From an uncultured Bacteroidota bacterium (GTDB taxonomy: Bacteria > Bacteroidota > Bacteroidia > Chitinophagales > Chitinophagaceae): a DNA stretch of 36,788 nucleotides. The notes below the pieces were generated by a model that searched no databases, was not told where the DNA came from, and saw only the letters and a list, made by a program, of their open reading frames with translations. The position numbers and the translations under genes are program-made. The stretch is from positions 1 to 36,788 of the forward strand of contig CAIVEH010000056.1 of assembly GCA_903904855.1 (NCBI GenBank), written 5' to 3'. Positions 18,351-36,179 of the stretch are shown here, piece after piece. Each line of letters begins with the position of its first letter. The first letter of the stretch is position 1.

Positions 18351-19982
18351 ATGAGTTTCACACATCCTGTGCTGGCATCGGTACTTTTTTTATCAGTTTT
18401 AAGCTCTGCAAACGCCCAGACAAAGCAAAAGTTGAATATTGACGAAGCAACCGTTTTCCTTAATGGGGCCGAACTTACCAGTAGAGCAAAGGTGAACCTG
18501 GTAAAGGGGGAAAATGAAATACTCTTCAGCAATGTGGCTGGCGATATAAATAACCAGAGCATCAGCGTTAGCGCTTCGAATGGCGTGGTGGTTGAGGCTG
18601 CTACTTTCCAGAACAACTATCTGGGCGATGAGATATTATCCCCTCGGGCCAGAGAAATAAAAGACAGTATTGAGATATTGAATGATTCAAAAAAACTGAT
18701 CAATGATAAGCTCACTGTGATTACTGAAGAAATTGCAGTGCTGTTTAATAACAAAAAAGTAGGTGGCGAGAATACCGGTCTCTCGGTAACGGAACTGACC
18801 AAATTGCTTGATCTTTACAATGCCCGGTATGAATCCTACCTCAACCAAAAAGGCAGGCAGGAAGAACTGCAGAAGAAAACAGATGAACGAATTGCCAAAC
18901 TGAAAAGGCAACTGGACGAAGAACAGAAAAAAGGGGTACAACCCGGTGGGCAGATGCTGGTGAAGTTCTTTGCAAAAGAAGCAACTTCAACATCAGTAGT
19001 AATAGATTATATAGTACCCAATGCAGGCTGGGCACCCACTTACGATGTTATGGCCGATGCTGTAAACCTGCCGGTGAAGCTATTCTATAAAGCCAATATC
19101 CACCAGAACAGTGGCGTTAGCTGGAACAATGTGAAGCTAACACTGAGTACCGGTAACCCCAACGAAGGGGTTAATGCTCCGAGCCTTACACCCTGGTATC
19201 TTGCTTTTTATATGCCACCCCCTCCACCCCCTAAGATAACTATGTCTGCCAAACCTCAATATAAAGCTGCAATGAGCAGGAGAGGTGGTGATGCAATGGG
19301 TGTAGCTGGTGGATTAAATGATAATGCAGAGGAATCATCTATCAACGATTATGTATCGGTTGATAATGCCGGAGTAAACACCAATTTCGAAATCGACCTG
19401 CCATATACCATACCATGCGATGGCAAGCAACATCTGGTTGCTGTAAAGAAATATGAGCTGCCAGCAACATACCGCTACTTTGCAGTTCCCAAGCTTGATA
19501 AAGATGCATTCCTGCAGGCACAGGTTACCCATTGGGAAGACCTGAATCTGCTGCCCGGCACAACCAATATCTTCTATGAAGGCACCTATGTGGGCCAGGG
19601 CATGATTGATGTACGCAACGTGAAGGACACTTTCACTATATCGCTGGGCAGGGATAAAAAAGTTATCGTAAAAAGAGACCGTGATACACAACGCAGAAGT
19701 GTGAAGACAATTGGCACCAATGTGCGCGAGGAATTTGCCTACAGCATTACCATACGCAATACCCGTAAGGAAAATATTAACCTGACTATAAACGACCAGA
19801 TTCCGGTGAGCAATGATAAAGACATAGCCATCGAAGACATCGAAAACGGCGGGGCAGACATTGATCCAACCACAGCACTAATGACCTGGAACCTGGTATT
19901 GCAACCAAACGAAACCAAAAAACTTAGCTTTGGCTTCACTGTAAAATACCCGAAGGGAAAGACTATTAACAATCTGAGATAG
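18351..19982 (+). CDS. DUF4140/DUF4139 (MuiA-family) protein, paralogue 1
   Basis: A 543-residue exported protein. Order: signal peptide (1-22, ending NAQ); DUF4140 domain (about 27-120; INIDEATVFLNGAELTSRA, NGVVVEAATFQNNYL); a coiled coil (about 120-195); DUF4139 domain (about 200-543) with VIDYIVPNAGWAPTYDVMAD, a low-complexity loop (288-330) containing six prolines and MSRRGGDAMGVAGG, then the highly conserved block DNAGVNTNFEIDLPYTIPC. The family includes Streptomyces/Pseudomonas 'mucoidy inhibitor A' proteins; the biochemical function is unknown. It is first of three tandem paralogues, with its own promoter and terminator. Confidence 0.88.
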   Translation: MSFTHPVLASVLFLSVLSSANAQTKQKLNIDEATVFLNGAELTSRAKVNLVKGENEILFSNVAGDINNQSISVSASNGVVVEAATFQNNYLGDEILSPRAREIKDSIEILNDSKKLINDKLTVITEEIAVLFNNKKVGGENTGLSVTELTKLLDLYNARYESYLNQKGRQEELQKKTDERIAKLKRQLDEEQKKGVQPGGQMLVKFFAKEATSTSVVIDYIVPNAGWAPTYDVMADAVNLPVKLFYKANIHQNSGVSWNNVKLTLSTGNPNEGVNAPSLTPWYLAFYMPPPPPPKITMSAKPQYKAAMSRRGGDAMGVAGGLNDNAEESSINDYVSVDNAGVNTNFEIDLPYTIPCDGKQHLVAVKKYELPATYRYFAVPKLDKDAFLQAQVTHWEDLNLLPGTTNIFYEGTYVGQGMIDVRNVKDTFTISLGRDKKVIVKRDRDTQRRSVKTIGTNVREEFAYSITIRNTRKENINLTINDQIPVSNDKDIAIEDIENGGADIDPTTALMTWNLVLQPNETKKLSFGFTVKYPKGKTINNLR

Positions 19983-20006
19983 CTGATTCTTAAGATTTCA
20001 TTAAAC

Positions 20007-20043
20007 ATAGCCCACAGGTTCAACCGTGGGCTATCTTATTTAT
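20007..20043 (+). terminator. Terminator of DUF4139 paralogue 1
   Basis: Stem ATAGCCCAC / GTGGGCTAT with an inner GGTT/AACC pairing, followed by CTTATTTATTT, 24 bp past the stop. Confidence 0.85.
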
Positions 20044-20100
20044 TTCTGTCAAAGCCTTGTATATCTTATTGCTCAAAACGGCTCCCTATAGCCACACCTA

Positions 20101-20158
20101 AAACACAGTAATGTAATTTGTTTCAAACCACCCAAGGTCAGCAGTGAAATTTACGTCT
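20101..20158 (+). promoter_or_regulatory. Conserved leader block of DUF4139 paralogue 2
   Basis: Two blocks, AAACACAGTAATGTAA (20101-20116) and TTACGTCT (20151-20158), recur with the same 50-bp offset, and the same 86-bp distance to the ATG, upstream of paralogue 3. No standard TAnnTTTG box is conserved between them, so this is probably the promoter/operator region, read by an unidentified factor. Confidence 0.5.
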
Positions 20159-20186
20159 GCTCTTATATACCAAAGCACCAAAGTAT

Positions 20187-21827
20187 ATGAGACACACAAC
20201 AATTTTACTCGGAACTTTACTCGCGGTTTTAATTGTCTCAAGAGCATCAGCTCAGCCACAGCAAAAACTTAAAATAGAAGAGGCTGTTGTATTCCTTAAA
20301 GGAGCCGAACTGACCAGCAGCGCCAGGGTTAACCTTGCTGCAGGCGAAAATGAGATATTGTTTACAAATGTGGCCGGGAATATTAACACACAAAGTATAA
20401 CAGTAGGCGCTTCTGGCGGTGTGGTGGTAGAAGCCGCAACTTTCCAGAGCAATTACCTTACCAATAATATTATTACTGCAAGGGCTAAGGAGATAAAAGA
20501 CAGTATCGAAATTCTTGAAGCAGGTAAAAACCCGGTCAATGATAGGCTGTTGGTTATTGAGGGACAGATTTCATTACTGACTGAAAATAAAAACGTAGGT
20601 GGCGATAATAATGGTCTTTCAGTAGCTGAACTGACTAAGCTGCTGGATCTTTACAGCGCCAGGTACGAGGGCTACCTGAATCAAAAAGGCCGGCTTGAAG
20701 AGGTGTTGAGGAAAACTGATGAAAGAATAGACAAACTCAATCAGCAAATGAATGAGGAGCAAACCAAAACTGTGCAGCCCGGTGGCCAGATACTGGTGAA
20801 GTTTTATGCAAAACAAGCAACTGCATCACTGATTACTATCGACTATGTGGTAACAAATGCCGGTTGGTCGCCTGCTTATGATATTATGGCCGACAAGGTT
20901 AATATGCCCATAAAACTCGCTTATAAAGCCAACATTTACCAGAACACAGGTATAAACTGGAACAATGTAAAACTCACGCTGAATACAGGTAACCCAAACG
21001 AAGGTGTCAATGCCCCGGCGCTAAATCCATTGTATCTGGCCTTCTATGTTCCACCGCAAACCTATAATCAGGATAATTCAAACGCCCTGCGGGAGGTAGT
21101 GGTGGTTAGACAATACAAAAAAGCATTGGTTAATTCCGATAATGCCTCAGCCTCATTGGTTCTGAATAAGGAAAATCAGGCTACAATTAGTGATTATGTA
21201 TCTGTAGATAATGCCGGTGTGAATACCAATTTCGAAATAGATCTGCCTTATACCATATCCTGCGATGGTAAGCAGCATCTGGTGGCTGTAAAGAAATATG
21301 AACTGCCGGCTACTTACCGCTACTTTGCAGTACCTAAGCTGGATAAGGATGCCTTCCTGCAGGCCCAGGTAACACAATGGGAAGACCTTAACCTGCTGCC
21401 GGGTACTACCAATATTTTTTATGAAGGCACTTATGTAGGCCAGGGAAATCTGGATGTACGCAATTTGAAAGACACCTTTACTATATCACTGGGCAGGGAC
21501 AAAAAGATAGTGGTAAAAAGAGACCGCGATACCCAGCGCAGAAGTGTGAAAACAATCGGCACCAATGTGCGCGAGGAATTTTCCTACAGTATCTCTATCC
21601 GCAACAATCGTAAGGAAAATATAAACCTTATTATACAGGACCAGATGCCGGTGAGCAATGATAAAGATATTGAGCTCGAAGCCCTGGATAATGGAGGTTC
21701 CGCAATAGAAGAGAATACAGGTATAATGAACTGGGATATACAGCTGAAACCCAATGAAACAAAAAAAATGGAGTTTGGCTTTACCGTAAAATATCCCAAA
21801 GGTAAAACTGTACTTAATCTGAAATAG
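20187..21827 (+). CDS. DUF4140/DUF4139 (MuiA-family) protein, paralogue 2
   Basis: A 546-residue paralogue of the preceding gene with the same layout: signal peptide (1-22), DUF4140 (about 27-120), coiled coil (about 150-195), DUF4139 (about 200-546). The variable loop (288-335) contains LREVVVVRQYKKALV (301-315), which resembles the 'EVVV' junction that precedes the plug of SusC-like TonB-dependent receptors. After the loop, residues from VDNAGVNTNFEIDLPY are almost identical to paralogue 1, while the DNA differs at many synonymous sites. This indicates an old duplication kept under strong protein-level constraint. Confidence 0.88.
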   Translation: MRHTTILLGTLLAVLIVSRASAQPQQKLKIEEAVVFLKGAELTSSARVNLAAGENEILFTNVAGNINTQSITVGASGGVVVEAATFQSNYLTNNIITARAKEIKDSIEILEAGKNPVNDRLLVIEGQISLLTENKNVGGDNNGLSVAELTKLLDLYSARYEGYLNQKGRLEEVLRKTDERIDKLNQQMNEEQTKTVQPGGQILVKFYAKQATASLITIDYVVTNAGWSPAYDIMADKVNMPIKLAYKANIYQNTGINWNNVKLTLNTGNPNEGVNAPALNPLYLAFYVPPQTYNQDNSNALREVVVVRQYKKALVNSDNASASLVLNKENQATISDYVSVDNAGVNTNFEIDLPYTISCDGKQHLVAVKKYELPATYRYFAVPKLDKDAFLQAQVTQWEDLNLLPGTTNIFYEGTYVGQGNLDVRNLKDTFTISLGRDKKIVVKRDRDTQRRSVKTIGTNVREEFSYSISIRNNRKENINLIIQDQMPVSNDKDIELEALDNGGSAIEENTGIMNWDIQLKPNETKKMEFGFTVKYPKGKTVLNLK

Positions 21828-21873
21828 CTAACTAAATCCTGCATTCGCGTGTAATAGTTTTAGTAGTGTTTTT

Positions 21874-21913
21874 ATGCGCCTGATTCCTTCAGATTCAGGC
21901 GCATTTATTTATT
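21874..21913 (+). terminator. Terminator of DUF4139 paralogue 2
   Basis: Perfect 10-bp stem ATGCGCCTGA / TCAGGCGCAT followed by TTATTTATTT, 47 bp past the stop. Confidence 0.9.
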
Positions 21914-21948
21914 TAAAACCACACGTTTCAACTGACATAAAAATCGAT

Positions 21949-22006
21949 AAACACAGTAATGTAAATTATTGAAAACAACCAAAGTTCTGCTGTCTTAATT
22001 ACGTCT
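21949..22006 (+). promoter_or_regulatory. Conserved leader block of DUF4139 paralogue 3
   Basis: AAACACAGTAATGTAA (21949-21964) and TTACGTCT (21999-22006) repeat the leader of paralogue 2 at the same spacing and the same distance from the start codon (86 bp). Confidence 0.5.
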
Positions 22007-22034
22007 CTCTAAGTATACCAATCAACCAGATTTT

Positions 22035-23774
22035 ATGAGACACACAACACTTTTTATCGGAGCATTAATTACCATTTTTATAGCCAATGGCGCCTTGGCA
22101 CAGCCACAGCAAAAACTTAAAATTGAAGAGGCTGTTGTTTTCCTCAATGGGGCAGAACTCACCAGCACATCACAAGTGAATCTGGCTTCTGGAGAAAATG
22201 AAATCCTGTTCACGAATGTTGCCGGAGATATTAATACACAGAGTATCACAGTAGGTGCATCGGGTGGCGTGGTTGTAGAGTCTGCTACATTTCAGAATAA
22301 TTACCTGGGCAAGGATATACTCACTGCACAGGTAAAAGAAATGAAAGACAGCATCGAAATTCTTGCTGCAGCCAAGAAGCCGCTGAATGATCAGCTGACT
22401 GTCTTAAATGAACAGCTCTCTTTACTGGCCGCCAACAAAAAGGTTAGTGGCGAAACCAACGGATTATCGGTTACCGAACTTACCAAACTCCTTGACTTGT
22501 ACAGCACAAGGTATGAGGGCTACCTGAGCCAGAAAGGCCGGCTGGAAGAGTTGCTCAGAAAAACTGATGAGCGGATAGGCAAGTTGAATCAACAGGTAAA
22601 TGAGGAACAAAAGAAGGGCGTGCAACCCGGCGGGCAGATACTGGTGAAGTTTTATACAAAAGAAGCTACGGCCTCCCTGATTACCATCGACTATGTAGTG
22701 CCCAATGCCGGCTGGTCGCCAACCTACGATATTATGGCCGATGCGGTAAACAGACCTATCAAGCTAGCATACAAAGCCAATATTCACCAGAACTGTGGCG
22801 TGAACTGGAACAATGTGCGCCTCAGTCTCAGTACCGGCAACCCTAATGAAGGCGTTACTGCGCCAGTACTTAGCCCTGTATATCTGGCTTTTTACAGGCC
22901 TCCGGTTGTAAATAATTATCAGAATCAGAGCCGCACGCTCGACAGGACAGAAATTGCTGCAATACCTACTAACCAGGTAACCGACATTGTATCCACTACT
23001 ACTGGGGTTTACCAATCGCAGAGAGGTAGTAATTATTCTTTGGGTGGTGCCAGAACTTCAGGTACATTATATATCGTAGATGGTGTGCAGGTGCAGGGTA
23101 GCGCTGGTGTTCAATCCCAGGATAATGCTACTATTGAGCATTATGTTACTGTAGATAATGCTGGTGTTAACTCCACCTTCGATATAGAGCTTCCCTATAC
23201 CATACCCTGCGATGGTAAGGAGCACCTTGTGGCAGTGAAGAAGTATGAACTGCCCGCTACTTACCGCTATTATGCAGCTCCTAAACTGGATAAAGATGCA
23301 TTCCTTCAGGCACAGGTTACCAGTTGGGAAGACCTCAACCTCATGACCGGCCCGACCAATATTTTTTATGAAGGCACTTATGTGGGCCAGGGCACACTCG
23401 ATCCGCACAGGGTAAAGGATACACTCACTATCTCGCTGGGCAGGGATAAGAAAATAGTGGTAAGGAGAGAACGGGATACAAAGCTGCGCAGTGTAAAATC
23501 AATTGGTACCAATGTTAGGGAAACTTTTGCCTACAGCATCATGGTTCGTAATAACCGCAAGGAAAGCATCAATCTTACCATTCAGGATCAGCTACCCGTA
23601 AGTAATGATAACAACATAGTACTCGAAGATATCGACGATGGTAATGCAGAAACAGAAGAGAATACCGGCTTTATGAAATGGAATCTGGCTATAGCGCCTA
23701 ACGAAGTAAAGAACCTAGAGTTTGGTTTTACAGTAAAGTATCCTAAGGGGAAGATAGTAGCGAATCTGAGGTAA
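22035..23774 (+). CDS. DUF4140/DUF4139 (MuiA-family) protein, paralogue 3, with receptor-plug-like insert
   Basis: A 579-residue paralogue: signal peptide (1-22), DUF4140 (27-120), coiled coil (about 150-195), DUF4139 (from about 200). The loop that is short in paralogues 1 and 2 is here extended (about 288-367) and reads like the plug of a TonB-dependent receptor: DRTEIAAIPTNQVTDIVSTT (303-322), GVYQSQRGSNYSLGGARTSG (324-343), TLYIVDGVQVQGS (344-356). The order and spacing of 'IPT...DIVSTTTGV...GGAR..GTLYIVDGVQV' are those of Bacteroidota receptor plugs. After it the DUF4139 core resumes with DNAGVNSTFDIELPYTIPC. No beta-barrel follows. The function is unknown. Confidence 0.88.
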   Translation: MRHTTLFIGALITIFIANGALAQPQQKLKIEEAVVFLNGAELTSTSQVNLASGENEILFTNVAGDINTQSITVGASGGVVVESATFQNNYLGKDILTAQVKEMKDSIEILAAAKKPLNDQLTVLNEQLSLLAANKKVSGETNGLSVTELTKLLDLYSTRYEGYLSQKGRLEELLRKTDERIGKLNQQVNEEQKKGVQPGGQILVKFYTKEATASLITIDYVVPNAGWSPTYDIMADAVNRPIKLAYKANIHQNCGVNWNNVRLSLSTGNPNEGVTAPVLSPVYLAFYRPPVVNNYQNQSRTLDRTEIAAIPTNQVTDIVSTTTGVYQSQRGSNYSLGGARTSGTLYIVDGVQVQGSAGVQSQDNATIEHYVTVDNAGVNSTFDIELPYTIPCDGKEHLVAVKKYELPATYRYYAAPKLDKDAFLQAQVTSWEDLNLMTGPTNIFYEGTYVGQGTLDPHRVKDTLTISLGRDKKIVVRRERDTKLRSVKSIGTNVRETFAYSIMVRNNRKESINLTIQDQLPVSNDNNIVLEDIDDGNAETEENTGFMKWNLAIAPNEVKNLEFGFTVKYPKGKIVANLR

Positions 23775-27202: not shown

Positions 27203-27331
27203 TAATACCAAATAGACATTATAAACCGGCATTGGTATTCTTTGCGGCCTTAAAATTGACGTTTGCATATTGCGCCTTCGCACCTTGGCGTGAGATTTTT
27301 TCATGCCGTTCTTTATAGTCTAATCGGTATA
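27203..27331. repeat. Dispersed ~130-bp repeat, copy 1
   Basis: This stretch and 29236-29364 are about 85 percent alike over their whole length by eye (shared TAATACCAAAT start, CCGGCATTGGTATTCTTTGC, GTTTGCATATTGCGCCTTCG, GTGAGATTTTTTCATGCCG). The outer ends are imperfect inverted repeats of each other (TAATACC...CCGGCAT and TATACC...ACGGCAT). Read on the minus strand it gives ISRQGAKAQ, a variant of the SRKGAKAQR string commonly produced by intergenic repeats of this type in many bacteria, so no protein is implied. Confidence 0.8.
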
Positions 27332-27412
27332 AAGAGAGCAGATAACTGTTCCCGTTTTTTATTTTGAGCAAATTCGTTGGTGTAGAATACAAACAATAGC
27401 AGACACAAAAAT

Positions 27413-28742: not shown

Positions 28743-29036
28743 TTACCTTACCATCCTGAATTCATAAACTTCTGGAAGCACTTTTCGTATTGCAACACAG
28801 CGCAGGCAATTTTCAGCTATAGCATGTCCATGTTCAGTTTTGCCGCTGAAGGAATACTCTTTGCCTATTTCAAATGATTGTCCTTTGGCAAATTTGCCAC
28901 CTGTGAGCGCAACAGCCACCAGTTCGTGACCATTTTCAATTGCTTCGCCATGACCGCCGGTATAGATAGCTGCAGGTGGCAGCATTTTCGGACAATGGTA
29001 GGCAGAAACTTCCTTGATCAATACAATTGTGAGCAT
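28743..29036 (-). CDS. Hypothetical protein of 97 residues
   Basis: A cytosolic-looking protein (no signal peptide or membrane helix) starting MLTIVLIKEVSAYHCPKMLP, with a central IYTGGHGEAIENGHELVAVA and a C-terminal half containing EHGHAIAENCLRCVAIRK. Cys15, Cys79 and Cys82 plus several His residues could bind metal, but no family is recognised. The composition is that of a real small globular protein. An ATG at 29036 follows the AT-rich leader. A LytTR-type promoter at 29391-29500 points toward it from about 350 bp upstream, with a repeat element and two hairpins in between, so whether it drives this gene is uncertain. Confidence 0.6.
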   Translation of the reverse strand: MLTIVLIKEVSAYHCPKMLPPAAIYTGGHGEAIENGHELVAVALTGGKFAKGQSFEIGKEYSFSGKTEHGHAIAENCLRCVAIRKVLPEVYEFRMVR

Positions 29037-29119
29037 AAAATAAAATTTATTTGTTTGAGTTAAGCTTTCCTACTCTGTTCAAGGCTTTTCGGATTCCCCC
29101 TCCCGTTTTGATACCTGTG

Positions 29120-29235: not shown

Positions 29236-29364
29236 TAATACCAAATGGATATTCTAAACCGGCATTGGTATTCTTTGCGGTCTTAAAAATGACGTTTGCA
29301 TATTGCGCCTTCGCGCCTTAGTGTGAGATTTTTTCATGCCGTTCTTTCTAGCCTAATGGGTATA
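29236..29364. repeat. Dispersed ~130-bp repeat, copy 2
   Basis: Second full copy of the element at 27203-27331, in the same orientation. It starts at TAATACCAAATGG and ends at CTAATGGGTATA; its ends are imperfect inverted repeats. It lies between the divergent LytTR-type promoter and the next minus-strand gene. Confidence 0.8.
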
Positions 29365-29390
29365 ATTTCATTTTTCCCCTAGAGCTGATA

Positions 29391-29500
29391 CAAACATACT
29401 ATGCAGATCAGCTGATGAAAAGATGGAGGTAGCCAACGGCGGAAAAGAGGCGTGAATTGCGGAAACTGAGTAGTGAACGGCGGAAATGAAAAAGTGAAAA
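29391..29500 (-). promoter_or_regulatory. Divergent LytTR-type promoter with four phased sites
   Basis: On the minus strand, sites TTTTCAC (29500-29494), CGTTCAC (29479-29473), AATTCAC (29458-29452) and CGTTGGC (29438-29432) recur every 21, 21 and 20 bp; the last three are preceded by TTTCCGC. The -7 box TATGTTTG (29398-29391) begins 40 bp after the start of the nearest site. Spacing and the cgTTcAc core fit LytTR direct repeats (9-bp half-sites, about 12-bp gap). Confidence 0.65.
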
Positions 29501-29587
29501 ACCTCTTTAAGTCGTGCTATAGCCTCTTTATCAGGCTTTTATAAAAACAAATATGTTATTTCAAATTTTGTTTTGTGGGTTAAATAC

Positions 29588-29676
29588 CATTCACGAAATC
29601 ATTTCCGCCGTTCGTGCTGTGTGGCGGCATTTGGCTACTTACCACTTTTCACCAGCTGCCCGGCATCGTACGTTTG
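29588..29676 (+). promoter_or_regulatory. LytTR-type promoter of small secreted protein 1
   Basis: Sites CATTCAC (29588-29594), CGTTCGT (29609-29615, preceded by TTTCCGC) and CATTTGG (29628-29634) start 81, 60 and 41 bp before the -7 box TACGTTTG (29669-29676). No -33 TTTG is present, as expected for an activator-dependent promoter. The start codon is 20 bp beyond the -7 box. Confidence 0.68.
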
Positions 29677-29695
29677 TATCACAAAAACGGAAACA

Positions 29696-30109
29696 ATGAA
29701 ATCAATCAGCATCTTATTCCTGGCTTTAGCTGCCAGCTTTACTCAGGCAAAAGGCCAGCAGGCATTCAAAAATGTATCGATAGAGCAAGCGGAGCATCAT
29801 TATGTGGTGCAATTCTCAGTGCCATCTGAGACTAATATATACCAATACCGCATTGAGGCAGGCAACGACAGCACAGATATGGAGGTTACAGGCGTGGTGA
29901 AGCCCAGGGGAAACAGCCAGCTGGAGCGGGACTATATGTATGAGACCTTCGACACAGGTTATAAATATTACCGTGTTGTGGCTGTGAGTATGGGCAGCCA
30001 GCTGAAATACTCCCATATACTTAGCCGCCCGCCCGCAGATACAAGGCCTGAGCATAACCCTGGTGTACATAAACAAATGGAAACCAATATATTGGCAAGG
30101 GGCAACTAA
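29696..30109 (+). CDS. Small secreted FN3-like protein 1
   Basis: A 137-residue protein from the ATG at 29696. The frame is open further upstream, but the promoter lies there and only this start gives a signal peptide (KSISILFLALAASFTQAKGQ, cut near residue 20). The mature part looks like a single fibronectin-type-III-like beta-sandwich: HYVVQFSVPSETNIYQYRIE, then TGVVKPRGNSQLERDYMYE and GYKYYRVVAVSMGSQLKYS, the pattern seen in domains before T9SS tails. It ends with METNILARGN, shared with its paralogue at 31957. Exported, function unknown; probably controlled by the adjacent LytTR regulator. Confidence 0.8.
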   Translation: MKSISILFLALAASFTQAKGQQAFKNVSIEQAEHHYVVQFSVPSETNIYQYRIEAGNDSTDMEVTGVVKPRGNSQLERDYMYETFDTGYKYYRVVAVSMGSQLKYSHILSRPPADTRPEHNPGVHKQMETNILARGN

Positions 30110-30156
30110 TGCAAGGCAAATTATAGTAGATCTCGAGCTATAAACTGACTTTTCAT

Positions 30157-30182
30157 AAGCGCCCCGTGGCGCTTTTATTTTT
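30157..30182 (+). terminator. Terminator of small secreted protein 1
   Basis: Perfect stem AAGCGCC / GGCGCTT with loop CCGT followed by TTATTTTT, 48 bp past the stop. Confidence 0.88.
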
Positions 30183-30263
30183 GGTATATATGAGATATAT
30201 TGATTCACTAAGATGTAACTTAGACCTGATACAACCATACAGAAAAGAAATTATCTTTAGGCT

Positions 30264-31022
30264 ATGGAAACCGTTTACATTAGTGCTGTAATAGTTGATG
30301 ATGATGAGTTTTGCTGCTTTCAACTACAGGACCTGATAAAAAAGTACTCATTGGGTATAAACGTTCTGGCTGTGTGCAATTCGGGGGCTGAAGGGCTGAT
30401 AAAGATAGCAGAACTAAAGCCAGACCTGATATTTCTGGATGTAGAAATGCCGGGAATGAATGGTTTTGAAATGATCAGGAAACTGCCTGCTGGCAACTCT
30501 GAGATTATATTTACCACCAGCCACGACCATTATGCCATAAGGGCTATACGTTTTTCGGCGCTCGACTACCTGGTGAAACCCATTGACCCCAATGTGCTTC
30601 AGGAGGCTATTAGCCGGCTGAAAGATAAACTGAACACTAAACCAACCACTGAACCCCGCCCCTTGGAAATAATGGGTATACCCGCCGAGAAGAAACTGAA
30701 CAACCTGGCAGTGCCTACTATGGAGGGGCTGCTGTTTGTGGGCCTGCAGGATATAGTGCGCTGCGAAAGCGATGACAAGTACACGAAAATATTTACAGTT
30801 GATAAAAAAATGATCATGGCCAGCCGCACCATGGGCGATTTTGAAACCATACTGGAGCCGCATGGGTTTTTCCGCATACACAAATCATATCTCATTAACC
30901 TGAAACACCTAAAAAAATACCTGCGCGGCGATGGTGGCCAGGTAGTAATGACCGATGGCTCTACACTGGATGTGAGCCGGAGGAAGAAGGATGAACTGAT
31001 GGAATTGGTTGGGCAGTTTTAG
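30264..31022 (+). CDS. LytTR-family response regulator
   Basis: A 252-residue regulator. Receiver domain (about 5-120): acidic pair in VIVDDDEFC (10-18), phosphoacceptor Asp59 in LIFLDVEMPGMNGFEM, Thr/Ser in FTTSHDHYA (83-91) and Lys105 in DYLVKPID. LytTR DNA-binding domain (about 148-250): LLFVGLQDIVRCESDDKYTK, GFFRIHKSYLINLKHLKKY and LDVSRRKKDELMELVGQF. LytTR proteins bind direct repeats about 21 bp apart, which is exactly the layout seen at 29391-29500, 29588-29676 and 31848-31936. No LytS-type kinase is nearby; the nearest kinase is the hybrid HPt-containing protein at 33384. A damaged copy of its 3' end lies at 31616-31717. Confidence 0.93.
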   Translation: METVYISAVIVDDDEFCCFQLQDLIKKYSLGINVLAVCNSGAEGLIKIAELKPDLIFLDVEMPGMNGFEMIRKLPAGNSEIIFTTSHDHYAIRAIRFSALDYLVKPIDPNVLQEAISRLKDKLNTKPTTEPRPLEIMGIPAEKKLNNLAVPTMEGLLFVGLQDIVRCESDDKYTKIFTVDKKMIMASRTMGDFETILEPHGFFRIHKSYLINLKHLKKYLRGDGGQVVMTDGSTLDVSRRKKDELMELVGQF

Positions 31023-31083
31023 GTCAAATAATTAAAATAATTTCAGGATTTTATTCGGCCCGGATAGGAGGTCGCTAATTGTT

Positions 31084-31347
31084 TCATTCGTAATGAAATC
31101 TAAGGGAGATAATCTCTATAGTATTTTTATCTTGTACCCGATACACAATTCTATGTTCCTGTTTGATTCGTCTCGACCAGCAACCATGTAAGTCGTATTT
31201 CAGCGGTTCAGGTTTACCAATACCTGAAAAGGGTGTATCTTCAATAGATTGGATTAATGCAGTAATCCGGTTCAATACTTTTTTATCTCCGGACTTTTTC
31301 CAGAACTGGATATCTTCCTGTACAGCAGGTGCATAAATTATTTCCAA
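31084..31347 (-). CDS. Txe/YoeB-family toxin (mRNA endoribonuclease)
   Basis: An 87-residue RelE-superfamily toxin that cleaves mRNA at the ribosome. Residues typical of YoeB are present: Glu47 in GIGKPEPLKYDLHGCWSRRI, Arg59-Arg60 and Arg66 in RRIKQEHRIVYRV, and His85-Tyr86 in the C-terminal RFHYE. Length matches the family (about 84-90). Its ATG overlaps the end of the antitoxin gene by 10 bp, indicating translational coupling. The pair lies between the LytTR regulator and the remnant copy of its 3' end, on the opposite strand. Confidence 0.93.
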   Translation of the reverse strand: MEIIYAPAVQEDIQFWKKSGDKKVLNRITALIQSIEDTPFSGIGKPEPLKYDLHGCWSRRIKQEHRIVYRVQDKNTIEIISLRFHYE

Positions 31348-31562
31348 AGGTCAGCTGTTTTAATAGCCTTACCTTTCCCATTATTTAGCTGGTTAATACC
31401 TTTAAGAATATGTTTGCGGTTAGCCTCATTTGAAAGGAGATGGTCAGTATCCGTTTTAGTGGCGTTCTTTGTTAATAAAGCCTTTACTTTTTTCAATACA
31501 ATATCACTCTCTGTATTGAGTAACAACTGCATAAGTTCCAGTTTTTCAGCCTGAATATTCAT
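31338..31562 (-). CDS. Antitoxin of the YoeB-type module
   Basis: A 74-residue protein rich in Lys, Asn and Leu, encoded directly upstream of and overlapping the toxin gene. It starts MNIQAEKLELMQLLLNTESD, a helical N-terminal part, and ends in a probably disordered region (NGKGKAIKTADLWK) that would wrap the toxin. It has no Phd/YefM signature that I can see; antitoxins of this short leucine-rich type commonly accompany RelE/Txe toxins in Bacteroidota. Identification rests mainly on gene order and overlap. Confidence 0.85.
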   Translation of the reverse strand: MNIQAEKLELMQLLLNTESDIVLKKVKALLTKNATKTDTDHLLSNEANRKHILKGINQLNNGKGKAIKTADLWK

Positions 31563-31615
31563 AGTACAAAATTAAGAAATGATTTTCAATTTGAAACAAC
31601 AGAATATTAAAAATT

Positions 31616-31717
31616 ACCTGCGCGGCGATGGTGGCCAGGTAGTAATGGCCGATGGCTCGACTGGATGTGAGCCGGAGGAAGAAGGATGAACTGATGGAAT
31701 TGGTGGGGCTGTTTTAG
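31616..31717 (+). pseudogene. Remnant copy of the 3' end of the LytTR regulator
   Basis: These 102 bases match 30917-31022 closely (start ACCTGCGCGGCGATGGTGGC, end GGATGAACTGATGGAATTGG), with only a few changes. One is a 2-base loss at the segment GGCTCgaCTGG (GGCTCTACACTGG in the intact gene), which shifts the frame. Weak similarity may extend a further 25 bp upstream. The rest of the gene is missing. It marks a tandem duplication of the regulator region, now interrupted by the toxin-antitoxin pair. Confidence 0.88.
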
Positions 31718-31771
31718 GAAAGCATCAAATCTGTTTGTCTTCTTGAAAATGCAAATAAAAAGACTTTTATG

Positions 31772-31805
31772 ATAATCCATAACGACTATGGATTATTTAT
31801 TTGGG
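31772..31805 (+). terminator. Terminator-like hairpin after the regulator remnant
   Basis: A perfect 10-bp stem ATAATCCATA / TATGGATTAT with a 5-nt loop followed by TTATTTGGG. The A/T-rich stem makes it moderate evidence. It separates the remnant from the next promoter. Confidence 0.5.
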
Positions 31806-31847
31806 ATAAAAGAGGTTTCATTCTTAATCTAGCCTGTTTTCTGCTGC

Positions 31848-31936
31848 CATTCACGAAATAATTCCCGCCGTTCACTTCTCGGTATCGCCATTGACTACTT
31901 TATGCTTTTTACCGGCTGCAGGGCATCGTACGTTTG
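31848..31936 (+). promoter_or_regulatory. LytTR-type promoter of small secreted protein 2
   Basis: Sites CATTCAC (31848-31854), CGTTCAC (31869-31875, preceded by TTCCCGC) and CATTGAC (31889-31895) start 81, 60 and 40 bp before the -7 box TACGTTTG (31929-31936). Layout and sequence mirror the promoter at 29588-29676, and the -33 element is again missing. Confidence 0.68.
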
Positions 31937-31956: not shown

Positions 31957-32370
31957 ATGAGATCTCTCAGCATAATTATCCTGGCAATAGCAGCCAGCTA
32001 CATACAGGCAAAAGGACAGCAGGCATTTAAAAATGCTACTATACAGCAAACAGAAAACCATTATGTGGTGAGCTTCTCGGTGCCCAATGAAGTTAACATT
32101 TACCAGTACCGCATAGAGGCTGGCAACGACAGCACCCGGATGGAAGTAACCGGCGTGATAAAACCAAAAGGCAACAGTGTAATGGAGCGCAGCTACCAGT
32201 ATGAAACCTTTGATACAGCATATAAGTATTACCGGGTTGCAGCAGTGGGCATGGGTAGCCAGCTCATGTACTCAGCGATACTGAGCAGGCAAAATTCAGA
32301 TACAAAGCCGGGTGCTCAGCCCTGCGCCCCAAAGCAGTGTGAAACTAATGTGATTGCAAGGGGGAATTAA
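31957..32370 (+). CDS. Small secreted FN3-like protein 2
   Basis: A 137-residue paralogue of the protein at 29696, of the same length. Signal peptide RSLSIIILAIAASYIQAKGQ (about 1-20), then the same beta pattern: HYVVSFSVPNEVNIYQYRIE, TGVIKPKGNSVMERSYQYE, AYKYYRVAAVGMGSQLMYS, and the shared ending CETNVIARGN. The mature N-terminus (QQAFKNATIQQ) is near identical to that of protein 1. The C-terminal part has two extra cysteines (CAPKQCETN) that protein 1 lacks. Start chosen for the signal peptide and the promoter position. Function unknown; expected to be co-regulated with protein 1. Confidence 0.8.
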   Translation: MRSLSIIILAIAASYIQAKGQQAFKNATIQQTENHYVVSFSVPNEVNIYQYRIEAGNDSTRMEVTGVIKPKGNSVMERSYQYETFDTAYKYYRVAAVGMGSQLMYSAILSRQNSDTKPGAQPCAPKQCETNVIARGN

Positions 32371-32799
32371 TGGATATAACGCTAGGTTTGATACTCTATC
32401 ATTCTAAAATACTGACCATTTTTCAAGCTGCATTTATTCGTAATATTGTAAATAATTTTGCAATAAAAAGTGGAAACTCAACAAATAACATGTGTTTCAC
32501 AACATTTTAGGCTCATTTCAAAACATTTTCGTAATGAGTATTAATATATTTGTACCTTACAGCTGGGAATAATCATAAACAAGTGCGGTAGATTTAAATA
32601 AAAATACATTTGCCTGCTTTTGTCTTAATATTATTTGTTTGAATTACACAGATTTTACTAAATTGAATTAGGAGAAGCTAATTTCGCTGAATATCGGCGC
32701 TATCATAAAGGAACAAAACCTGAACGCACAGGGGAGCTATGCGGAAGGCGGATTCTGAAAAGCCTAAATAATAGAGTAGGAAAAAATTAATGTTTTTTT
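32371..32799. other. Intergenic region before the Cys/His-rich protein
   Basis: About 430 bp. Two -7-like boxes are present, TATATTTG (32545-32552) and TACATTTG (32605-32612), neither with a -33 partner. An open stretch without a start codon just after 32671 reads EKLISLNIGAIIKEQNLNAQ and continues GSYAEGGF to a stop near 32758; it is preceded by an in-frame TAG and may be a gene remnant or chance. Confidence 0.4.
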
Positions 32800-33231
32800 A
32801 TGCAAGAAGGACAACAGAAAAACACAGGCGGTATACCAACATCAGGTGGAAGTGACCAAGATCATGACAATCACCATCATCATGATGATTATGATGGCGG
32901 GGGAACTACAAACTGGACATGCACCCGTTGCGGTCTTCAAATGGCTACAAGCAATGGTACTGGTAATAAGCCGGTGCCTCCGCGGTCAGATGCCAACCTT
33001 TTTCCTATTTTCTTAACTGCTAACCAAGGCACAAGTTGGGAACCAGTACCGCCATTATTGGGAGATTTGCAACACAACTGGGGCTGGAGCGACACATATA
33101 ATGTATATATGTGTAACCTATGCGGTCTGACAGACCAAACTAATCAGCCTAATGGGAATCCTCCACCTGCCCAATCACAATTTTTTGCCGCATCAGATTT
33201 TTGTCATAAATGGGTTGGTCAACCATCGTAG
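32800..33231 (+). CDS. Cys/His-rich hypothetical protein with two CxxC pairs
   Basis: A 143-residue protein without signal peptide or membrane helix. After a Gly/Gln-rich start comes a His/Asp stretch (DHDNHHHHDDYD, 21-32), then CTRCGL (41-46) and, 60 residues later, CNLCGL (105-110); Cys135-His136 is near the end. The two near-identical C-x2-C-G-L knuckles could together bind one zinc ion. The middle is rich in Pro, Asn, Gly and Trp (TSWEPVPPLLGDLQHNWGWS). No family recognised. It lies between small secreted protein 2 and the hybrid kinase, and a long hairpin follows it. Confidence 0.55.
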   Translation: MQEGQQKNTGGIPTSGGSDQDHDNHHHHDDYDGGGTTNWTCTRCGLQMATSNGTGNKPVPPRSDANLFPIFLTANQGTSWEPVPPLLGDLQHNWGWSDTYNVYMCNLCGLTDQTNQPNGNPPPAQSQFFAASDFCHKWVGQPS

Positions 33232-33383: not shown

Positions 33384-36179
33384 ATGAAACGGATACTATT
33401 ATTGTTGTTTGGTTTCCTGGCTATGCATGCTTATGCCCAGCCTAAAATGGGGAAGGAATTCATTGATTCCTTGACAAAAGAGCTGAATTCCACCAGCCCG
33501 CCTAAAGCAGACTCGTTAAAAACTGCTATACTGGTAGAATTATGTTTTGATTACTATGCTATTAATCCTGATAAAGGCATACAATATGGCCTACAGGGCC
33601 TGGAGATAGCCCAAAATTCAAACCTGAAAAACCAGGCTTCCCTTGCTTACAACTACCTGGGCGCCAACTATTGTGTAAAGGGAGACTATCCGAATGCATT
33701 TAATTGCTGGCTAAAATCGTTGAGCCTGAGTGAAGAACTTGGAAATAAAAAAAGGGTTGCAAGTACCTCAAAAAATATTGGGAGGATATATGTGCAGCAA
33801 AAGGACATCAATAATGCTTTAAAATATTATAACAACGCACTGGCCATCTATGAGGAAATAAAGGACACCATGGATATCCCACCTGTATGGGGGGATATCG
33901 GTAGTGCATATGCTGCTCTAGACAATTATCCGCTTGCGCTCGAATATTATTATAAAGCGCTTGAAAAAAACAAAAAATATAGTAATAAAATTTATACTAT
34001 TAATAATATTGGTAATATAGGGTTGGTATTGATGGAACAAGGGAAAGATTACCAGGGTGCCCTTGAAAATTTATTCCTGGCGCTGAAGATGAATGAGGAA
34101 ATAGGTGATGTGTACAATTCATTAATTAATTTGGGCAACATTGGGCTAAGTTATCTTTCCATTGCCAAGGATACAACAGGCAAGATCAAAAGAAGTGATT
34201 TGATACCGTTTGGTAAGGCTGCTAACCTCAGTAAGTCTATCGAATATTTTGATAAATGCATAGCATTGTGTAAGAAAACCTCTGATCTATATAACTTTGA
34301 GGTATATAGTGAAAAAGTTTCTCAGGCACATGAATTAGTAGGAAACTATAAATCCGCCCTTGAAAATTATAAACAATATGTAAAAGCAAAAGATTCTGTA
34401 TTTAATATTGCGAACAATACGAAAATCACTAACCTCGAAACCAAGCGTGCGGTAGAACTTAAAGACAAGCAAATAGAAATAGACAAGCTGGAAGTAGCCA
34501 AAAAGAAAAATGAGCGTTGGTTTCTGATGGCAGGCATAGGTGGGCTACTGGTGATAGTAACGATCAGTATCAGGAATAACCGTAAACAAAAGGTGTATAC
34601 TGTTTTGCTGCAAAAAGAAAAAGAACAGGTTTCGGCTGAAAAGGAAAACGCTGTGCAGCAGAGGTTGCGGGCTGAGCAAAGCGAGGCGTTCAAGCAGCAG
34701 TTTCTGGCCAATATGAGCCATGAGATACGCACGCCTATGAATGCCGTAATGGGTATGACCAGCCTGGCGTTGGATACCGGTGTGCCGGAGAAACAGAAAA
34801 TGTACCTGGAGGGGATCAAAAAATCATCAGATAATCTGCTGCACATCATCAATGATATTCTCGACCTCTCGAAGATAGAAGCGGGCAAGATGGAGCTGGA
34901 GGAGATCGACTTTTCGCTGGCCGGCACACTGGAGCAGGTGAAGCAGGTGCTGAGCTACCGGGCCGAGGAAAAGGGGCTGCAACTGATTACTTACATAGAC
35001 CCGGCTGTGCCTGATGTGGCTATTGGCGACCCGGTGAGGCTGGGGCAGGCGCTGCTGAACCTGGCAGGCAATGGCATAAAATTTACAGAGCAGGGCAGCG
35101 TGAGCATAGAAGTGAAGCAGCTAACCGAAGGTGTGCGGTTTTCGGTAACGGATACGGGCATAGGCATACCCAGGGATAAACTGGAACTGGTGTTTGAAAA
35201 ATTTTCGCAGGCCAACAGCTCAGATACCCGGAAGTTTGGCGGTACTGGGCTGGGGCTCAGTATCAGTCAGCAACTGGTGGAGCTGATGGGCGGGCATATA
35301 GGTATAGAAAGTGAGGAGGGGTCAGGCACAACTTTTTCGTTTATACTGAACCTGCCCATCGGATCGGAGGAAAGGCTGAAACAGCGGCTGGCTGCTGAGG
35401 AAGATGTGGATGGCAGCGCGCTGAATGGCCTTAGCATATTGGTAGTAGATGATAATGAGTATAACCGCATAGTGGCACGCGATACACTGGAAGCAAAGGC
35501 TAAGGTAAAGATTGATACCGTGGCCAGCGCCAAAGAAGGGCTGGCGCTGCTGCAGCAAAAACACTATGATGTGGTGCTGATGGATGTGCAGATGCCTGTG
35601 ATGAATGGCTTTGATGCCACCCGCTACATAAGGGAACAAATGGACGTACCGGTAAAAAATATACCGGTAATAGCGCTCACGGCATCGGTACTGCGCACCG
35701 ATCTGGACAAATGCAAGGCTGCGGGGATGAACCTCTATGTATCTAAACCATTTAAGGCCAGTCAGCTTATTGGCGCTATTGCTGAGGTGCTGGGGCTGAG
35801 TGGAGGAACTAAAAGACCAGCTCCGGTAATAGTGAAGGGAGTAGCGGCCGGTACAGTAACTGATCTAACCTACCTGACCACCTACTGCGAAAGTGATAAG
35901 GACCGAATAGCAGGATATGTAAAAATGTACCTTAAGGCCGCAGCGGGTTTTGAAGAAAAGGCAAGGGCTGCAATTGCCTCATGCAAGGCGGAAGATGCTG
36001 CAGCGCTGGCTCATGCGTTTAAACCCAAGTGGACAATGATGGGAATGGCCCAAAGTATAGATCTTGGCCAGAAAATTGAGTATATGAGCAAGGAGCTGGG
36101 CAATGAACCGCATATTAAGAAAAGTCTGGAAGAGCTTATTGTTTACAATAATCAATCGATAATAGAACTGCAGGCGTGA
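33384..36179 (+). CDS. TPR hybrid sensor histidine kinase with receiver and HPt domains
   Basis: A 931-residue membrane kinase. Signal peptide 1-18 (AYAQ); a periplasmic sensor of about six TPR units (about 45-335, e.g. YNYLGANYCVKGDYPNAFNC, STSKNIGRIYVQQKDINNAL); coiled coil; one membrane helix (379-396); a second coiled coil (405-437); HisKA with His446 (LANMSHEIRTPMNAVMGM); HATPase with Asn563 (NLAGNGIKFTE), DTGIGIP (590-596) and GGTGLGLSI (619-627); a receiver with Asp734 (VVLMDVQMPVMNGF) and Lys788 (SKPF); and a C-terminal HPt domain with His878 (AHAFKPKW). The full phosphorelay set points to a separate output regulator, for which the LytTR protein at 30264 is the nearest candidate. The signal sensed is unknown. 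Confidence 0.95.
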   Translation: MKRILLLLFGFLAMHAYAQPKMGKEFIDSLTKELNSTSPPKADSLKTAILVELCFDYYAINPDKGIQYGLQGLEIAQNSNLKNQASLAYNYLGANYCVKGDYPNAFNCWLKSLSLSEELGNKKRVASTSKNIGRIYVQQKDINNALKYYNNALAIYEEIKDTMDIPPVWGDIGSAYAALDNYPLALEYYYKALEKNKKYSNKIYTINNIGNIGLVLMEQGKDYQGALENLFLALKMNEEIGDVYNSLINLGNIGLSYLSIAKDTTGKIKRSDLIPFGKAANLSKSIEYFDKCIALCKKTSDLYNFEVYSEKVSQAHELVGNYKSALENYKQYVKAKDSVFNIANNTKITNLETKRAVELKDKQIEIDKLEVAKKKNERWFLMAGIGGLLVIVTISIRNNRKQKVYTVLLQKEKEQVSAEKENAVQQRLRAEQSEAFKQQFLANMSHEIRTPMNAVMGMTSLALDTGVPEKQKMYLEGIKKSSDNLLHIINDILDLSKIEAGKMELEEIDFSLAGTLEQVKQVLSYRAEEKGLQLITYIDPAVPDVAIGDPVRLGQALLNLAGNGIKFTEQGSVSIEVKQLTEGVRFSVTDTGIGIPRDKLELVFEKFSQANSSDTRKFGGTGLGLSISQQLVELMGGHIGIESEEGSGTTFSFILNLPIGSEERLKQRLAAEEDVDGSALNGLSILVVDDNEYNRIVARDTLEAKAKVKIDTVASAKEGLALLQQKHYDVVLMDVQMPVMNGFDATRYIREQMDVPVKNIPVIALTASVLRTDLDKCKAAGMNLYVSKPFKASQLIGAIAEVLGLSGGTKRPAPVIVKGVAAGTVTDLTYLTTYCESDKDRIAGYVKMYLKAAAGFEEKARAAIASCKAEDAAALAHAFKPKWTMMGMAQSIDLGQKIEYMSKELGNEPHIKKSLEELIVYNNQSIIELQA

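Follow-up and report, generated by a model that had tools for sequence, protein, structure and literature searches.

Most operators of LytTR-type regulators consist of 9–11-nt repeats separated by 11–13-nt spacers (PMC4847170). In LytTR regulatory systems (LRS), the repeats tend to lie ∼10 bp upstream of the −35 element (PMC6193735), and the proximal repeats of AgrA are centred near −60 (PMC4227749); each of these statements is taken from an excerpt of its source. Here, we describe three arrays of phased direct repeats in contig CAIVEH010000056.1 of an uncultured Bacteroidota bacterium of the Chitinophagaceae. The window, i.e. the stretch of DNA that was analyzed, is this contig (C56) in its entirety, with a length of 36,788 bp; the genome comprises 5.61 Mb in 271 contigs. 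Two of the arrays precede paralogous genes for small, putatively secreted proteins (secreted genes sg1 and sg2), the third lies on the minus strand ahead of an RNA leader termed DUF805b, and a response regulator with a LytTR domain is encoded in the same region (Table 1). We propose that a LytTR-type response regulator, most likely the protein encoded at 30264–31022, uses the arrays as operators and acts through them as an activator, and we assign this reading a probability of about 0.65.

The three window arrays share one geometry. Their sites start 81, 60 and 40 bp ahead of the first T of the −7 box, with successive starts 21 and then 20 bp apart, and score 7.1–14.6 bits on a matrix that was derived from this genome's own seven arrays and therefore favours these nine sites. 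A first-pass annotation of the window had placed ten sites in three arrays at about these positions, together with the boxes TATGTTTG and TACGTTTG. The boxes, the arrays and the distances of about 40, 60 and 81 bp hold throughout, as do nine of the sites. The tenth, a fourth minus-strand site 102 bp from its box, scores −1.4 bits and was dropped. The same annotation regarded the plus-strand promoters as devoid of a −33 element, which proved incorrect: of 21 arrays, 20 have TTTT 19 bp ahead of the box and one has CTTT. The −33 consensus of Bacteroidota is TTTG; with TTTT, one letter off, the window promoters do have a −33 element, albeit a weak one. This element was absent from the first-pass annotation, as were the shared ancestry of the arrays and the DUF805b leader behind the minus-strand array.

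The exact TAnnTTTG box, which is the Bacteroidota housekeeping promoter consensus at −12 to −5 (PMC9723704, in the part available to us), is found in 12 of the 21 arrays, including all seven of this genome, and the other nine boxes start with G or C. When the box is set at −12 to −5, the sites start at approximately −93, −72 and −52, TTTT spans approximately −35 to −32, and the centre of the proximal pair of sites falls near −58. Both spacing and position agree with published LytTR operators. The starts, 21 and 20 bp apart, fall within the repeat-plus-spacer range of PMC4847170, and site 3 ends 8 bp ahead of TTTT, compared to ∼10 bp in PMC6193735. The array position also suits activation. Repression by a LytTR protein is improbable, although a precedent exists: CoxC, a LytTR protein whose operator also has three direct repeats, is a repressor (PMC11347149, partial text). 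The CoxC operator overlaps the −35 box, whereas site 3 here stops short of TTTT, and the weakness of the −33 element is in keeping with a promoter that depends on an activator.

The first-pass annotation had suggested a genome-wide search for pairs of the motif; the single motif turned out to be a poor marker. At ≤3 mismatches, TTTCCGCNNTTCAC has 50 matches in the window (mean 28 and maximum 43 in 100 shuffles), and at ≤1 mismatch it has 36 in the genome, compared to 25 for the reversed pattern. Motif pairs gave 29 matches versus 21 for the reversed control, two of the 29 being sg arrays. Both were abandoned as genome-wide markers, as was a contiguous site-3 pattern, which matched in 21 of 35 genomes of the genus, many of the matches being due to chance. 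The phased triple, unlike the single motif, is specific, and the arrays exceed chance. Seven arrays are present in this genome, three in the window and four outside (one on C37, two on C54 and one on C248); of the latter, one was found by the motif search and three upstream of DUF805b elements.

A profile (R1) was built from 12 arrays, these seven plus another five from G026, which has the LytTR gene most similar to that of the window within the genus, and was run against 35 genomes of the genus, with 118 first-look candidates scored per genome and a strong array defined by E<1e-5. In this genome, the seven arrays that trained R1 have E≤3.4e-16, and the next match has 0.055. G026 contains six arrays, one of which (on C44) is outside the training set. 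Since these two genomes match R1 partly by construction, the other 33 constitute the held-out set. Strong arrays are present in six of the 33, namely G029 (2.5e-12), G006 (3.7e-10 and 1.4e-7), G022 (4.3e-10 and 3.8e-7), G024 (9.9e-10 and 4.0e-8), G020 (6.2e-7) and G005 (9.8e-7), and the other 27 have no R1 match better than 4.3e-4. The genome and genus searches thus support well the earlier proposal of a small regulon with a fixed operator geometry; this is a small, conserved regulon whose geometry is of the LytTR type.

The window arrays resemble each other beyond their sites. Any two of them agree at 61–67 of 98 bases, compared to ∼27 for shuffled sequence, and all three are not independent and probably descend from one promoter module. 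Therefore, the weight rests on the held-out genomes. An account in which the arrays are mere copies of a duplicated promoter, with sites under no selection, would explain this resemblance, but we consider it extremely unlikely, as the held-out genomes keep the in-phase triple ahead of unrelated genes. Furthermore, across the seven sg promoters that are orthologous, those of the window and of G026 among them, identity is 52% over the 98-bp array region and 29% over the next 98 bp upstream. Conservation by column in these promoters is 0.59 for the sites, 0.94 for the CTTTT region, 0.84 for the box and 0.40 for the rest. A shift test of the site mask on the same promoters is indecisive by itself and counts against selection on the sites as such: 5 of 65 circular shifts do as well as the true mask, in part because the bases flanking the cores are also conserved.

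The distribution of the regulator gene suggests which protein binds the arrays. The protein encoded at 30264–31022 combines a receiver with a LytTR domain, as expected for a LytTR response regulator, and D12, D13, D59 and K105 are invariant in eight orthologues. Orthologues with 67–94% identity are present in seven of the 34 other genomes of the genus (G026, G022, G029, G006, G012, G005 and G020); outside the genus, identity is 46% or less among the matches listed. An alignment to named genomes, covering 80 of 493 loci, contains one close orthologue (68%, in the uncultured Bacteroidetes metagenome-assembled genome Umea_bin-07769), with all others at ≤44%. Strong arrays occur in five of the six held-out genomes with an orthologue and in one of the 27 without (one-sided Fisher 1.5e-4, for related genomes and events that are not independent). 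In seven of eight orthologous loci (window included; G012 is the exception), the LytTR gene has an sg gene as its immediate upstream neighbour, and in all seven the sg promoter bears an array. None of the seven sg copies located elsewhere (G001, G002, G033, G034, G009, G020-C79 and G006-C87) has an array in its own promoter; at G006-C87, an array is found ahead of the gene preceding sg, which encodes a LuxR-type response regulator. The assignment of the arrays to the window LytTR, already suggested in the first pass, gains support from this co-occurrence and from the array in the neighbouring sg promoter, and we regard it as likely rather than proven.

A regulator from a different family that binds phased direct repeats, e.g. 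of the OmpR/PhoB type, is distinctly improbable. LytTR proteins are not the only regulators with direct repeats spaced by two helical turns, and the G006 target just mentioned is itself a response regulator of the LuxR type. However, half-site length, spacing and −33 distance agree with published LytTR operators, and the DNA-binding regulator that recurs beside sg arrays is a LytTR protein.

Several observations weigh against the choice of this particular LytTR protein. The genome encodes 11 LytTR domains, i.e. ten besides that of the window. None of the seven arrays lies at the promoter of the LytTR gene, the nearest upstream being that of sg1, so that the autoregulation described for LRS (PMC6193735, partial text) has no counterpart among the arrays of this genome. 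Among the 23 held-out genomes that are near-complete (≥90% complete and ≤5% contaminated), the co-occurrence falls to two of three with an orthologue versus one of 20 without (Fisher 0.034, again for related genomes). Two strong arrays are found in G024 (98% complete, 90 contigs), which has only three LytTR domains, none of them orthologous. One of its array promoters is syntenic with that of G022, and the 6-kb LytTR locus of G022 leaves no real trace in G024; a 27-bp match was dropped as a remnant of this locus, since it resembles a repeat of the dispersed kind. The G024 arrays may be explained by recent loss, by a gap in the assembly or by a different regulator. Lastly, G012 has an orthologue and no R1 array, with a weak, divergent candidate (8.9 bits) ∼160–220 bp upstream of the LytTR start. 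Both the number of LytTR domains and the G024 arrays would be accommodated if another of the 11 LytTR proteins bound the arrays and the window LytTR merely travelled with one target, sg; two of the three G024 LytTR proteins group firmly with those on C262 and C193 here. We consider this unlikely. By itself, a regulator shared with G024 leaves unexplained the contrast of 5/6 versus 1/27, a comparison made for the window LytTR alone, and the finding of sg-promoter arrays solely where the LytTR gene adjoins.

Table 1. Features of the window that are relevant to the phased arrays.
Feature	Position	Strand	Score or basis
97-aa gene behind minus promoter and leader	28743..29036	−	no Pfam match
DUF805b RNA (RF02914) in minus-promoter leader	29067..29102	−	35.7 bits (gathering score 35.6)
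−7 box TATGTTTG of minus promoter	29391..29398	−	
TTTT at −33 position, minus promoter	29418..29421	−	19 bp before box
Minus array site 3 CCGTTGGCTA, box-proximal	29430..29439	−	12.7 bits
Minus array site 2 CAATTCACGC	29450..29459	−	9.8 bits
Minus array site 1 CCGTTCACTA	29471..29480	−	14.6 bits
sg1 array site 1 CCATTCACGA	29587..29596	+	12.8 bits
sg1 array site 2 CCGTTCGTGC	29608..29617	+	7.1 bits
sg1 array site 3 CATTTGGCTA	29628..29637	+	8.5 bits
TTTT at −33 position, sg1 promoter	29646..29649	+	
−7 box TACGTTTG of sg1	29669..29676	+	
sg1, 137-aa protein, signal-peptide-like start (by eye), then beta sandwich weakly like FNIII	29696..30109	+	
Response regulator, receiver and LytTR DNA-binding domain	30264..31022	+	Pfam PF00072 6e-22, PF04397 1.2e-19
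sg2 array site 1 CCATTCACGA	31847..31856	+	12.8 bits
sg2 array site 2 CCGTTCACTT	31868..31877	+	11.9 bits
sg2 array site 3 CCATTGACTA	31888..31897	+	12.9 bits
TTTT at −33 position, sg2 promoter	31906..31909	+	
−7 box TACGTTTG of sg2	31929..31936	+	
sg2, sg1 paralogue (71% identity)	31957..32370	+	
TPR-hybrid histidine kinase (TPR, HisKA, HATPase, receiver), candidate phosphodonor	33384..36179	+	Pfam

DUF805b (RF02914) is classified as a cis-regulatory RNA by Rfam. Of the nine genes behind the array leaders, none of the eight that were scanned is a DUF805 gene by Pfam (the ninth is cut by a contig end). A DUF805b element stands behind five of the seven arrays here and four of the six in G026, with its AGAGTARG core 131–357 nt past the box. 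All nine non-sg arrays of the two genomes lead into such an element, and the nine elements align. Two of the five here and two of the four in G026 exceed the RF02914 gathering score; the other five reach 29.5–35.3, compared to 35.6. The four sg arrays of these genomes reach their gene within ∼20 nt, with no leader between. Four non-sg arrays of G022, G024 and G006 have no DUF805b match at E≤0.01. With 150 of 2,647 first-look candidates scored, this genome contains at least 16 DUF805b matches above threshold and at least 33 with at least 27.7 bits, and 28 of the 33 stand without such an array directly ahead. All 14 control genomes gave DUF805b matches at E≤1, none above threshold. Among the literature matches listed, which included general papers on structured RNAs, none dealt with the DUF805 RNA motif, as judged from the listing.

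Other DUF805b elements have different surroundings. A second, better-scoring element in the window (32745–32782, 47.4 bits) precedes a 143-aa gene at 32800 and has no array directly ahead. When the upstream regions of 29 distinct DUF805b elements were tested for a triple with a period of 21, L084 and L077 beat all 200 shuffles; the test is too blunt and was dropped, as upstream regions with known arrays (C37, C54 and C248) were equalled by 5 to 23 of the 200. L084 (G000:C119) carries a different operator-like array ∼200–255 bp before DUF805b, in which CATTCGGCAG occurs three times at exactly 21 bp (0 of 200 shuffles) and which may belong to another LytTR protein. By eye, ACCGTT-AACGGT-like palindromes lie ahead of further leaders (L065, L070, L074 and L080). 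One copy (29236–29365) of a 130-bp repeat lies within the leader of the minus promoter, ahead of the DUF805b element, and is 91.5% identical to a second copy at 27203–27332.

The genes behind the arrays are varied. Pfam identifies an OAA-family lectin (in G026) and class-3 lipases (on C248 here and C44 in G026), and seven of the ten proteins scanned, including that of the 97-aa gene, are unmatched. The 97-aa gene here and the OAA-family lectin of G026 (L129:299-1081, PF17882, 9.6e-51) occupy the same slot, bounded by the minus promoter and by genes named by eye as those of ribosomal proteins. A target in G024 bears a type IX secretion tail. The sg protein was modeled by AlphaFold2 as a beta sandwich with a mean pLDDT of 77, and a fold search gave only a weak FNIII match (E 7.8e-4, TM 0.44–0.48). 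The sg1 query against named genomes gave 22 pattern matches, none of which was confirmed. In four genomes without a LytTR orthologue (L253, L254, L256 and L257), GTGTTTTCACGGT-like repeats replace the array ahead of sg genes, as judged by eye.

The kinase encoded in the window is a candidate partner of the regulator. Homologues with 43–58% identity are present near the LytTR gene in G026, G020 and G029. In G005, a TPR gene truncated by the contig end matches the window kinase at 31% over 227 residues, and a TPR gene near LytTR in G022 looks alike by eye. The kinase has its own receiver domain, which makes its partner uncertain and counts against this pairing.

Two further features of the window were observed. 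At 31084–31718, the LytTR gene is separated from a 112-bp second copy of its 3′ end (94% identical) by two minus-strand genes, one for a YoeB-type toxin and the other a small partner gene; G026 lacks both the pair and the second copy, and the arrangement resembles an insertion accompanied by a long duplication of its target. At 18351–23774, there are three paralogous genes in tandem, with lengths of 543–579 aa (similarity by eye).

We propose the following mechanism. On receipt of a signal, the regulator would be phosphorylated, with the neighbouring TPR-hybrid kinase as the likeliest phosphodonor, and would bind the three half-sites, which, being spaced by two helical turns, share the same face of the DNA. 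The box-proximal pair, just upstream of the weak TTTT −33 element, would then allow the bound regulator to help the housekeeping RNA polymerase use the TAnnTTTG promoter. The regulon in this genome would comprise seven promoters, those of sg1 and sg2 and five with a DUF805b leader, whose transcripts would pass through DUF805b and reach a small gene or, in one case, a gene of the lipase-like kind. This can be put to the test, with seven promoters named, their sites at fixed positions, and a single candidate each for the regulator and the kinase, and it connects the catalogued DUF805b leader with a particular transcription module. A broader idea, which we offer tentatively as possible rather than probable, is that, in this genus, a single LytTR response regulator controls, through an invariant triple-operator promoter module, a turnover-prone group of functions that are exported or bind carbohydrates. 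In this genome and G026 the module would be welded to DUF805b, such that the regulator sets transcription and the RNA sets translation or elongation. The group comprises the OAA lectin and the lipase-like proteins recognized by Pfam, a protein that resembles a beta-propeller by eye, and the FNIII-like sg proteins (weak fold match). If true, DUF805b would gain a promoter-level partner and a physiological setting.

Among the literature matches listed, no mapped LytTR operator in Bacteroidota was found; two Flavobacterium papers name LytTR proteins and give no binding site in the portions available. The operators of AgrA, YpdB and streptococcal HdrR/BrsR are similar to the arrays in consisting of direct repeats upstream of a promoter (PMC4847170, PMC6193735, PMC4227749), and by eye the YpdB site GGCATTTCAT resembles their CRTTCAC core. 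They differ in having two repeats, not three, and in belonging to hosts of other phyla, and the available portions of these sources mention no DUF805b leader. The operators of RcoM1 and CoxC, which are LytTR regulators of genes for CO oxidation, likewise have three direct repeats at a spacing of about two helical turns near −35, to which a LytTR domain binds (PMC11347149, partial text). The site consensus of RcoM1, TTCNNGCA, is different from that of the arrays, and CoxC is a membrane MHYT-LytTR repressor whose operator overlaps −35, whereas the candidate here is a receiver-LytTR protein at promoters of the Bacteroidota type. Thus, LytTR triple operators have a precedent, and the new part is their coupling to DUF805b and the Bacteroidota setting.

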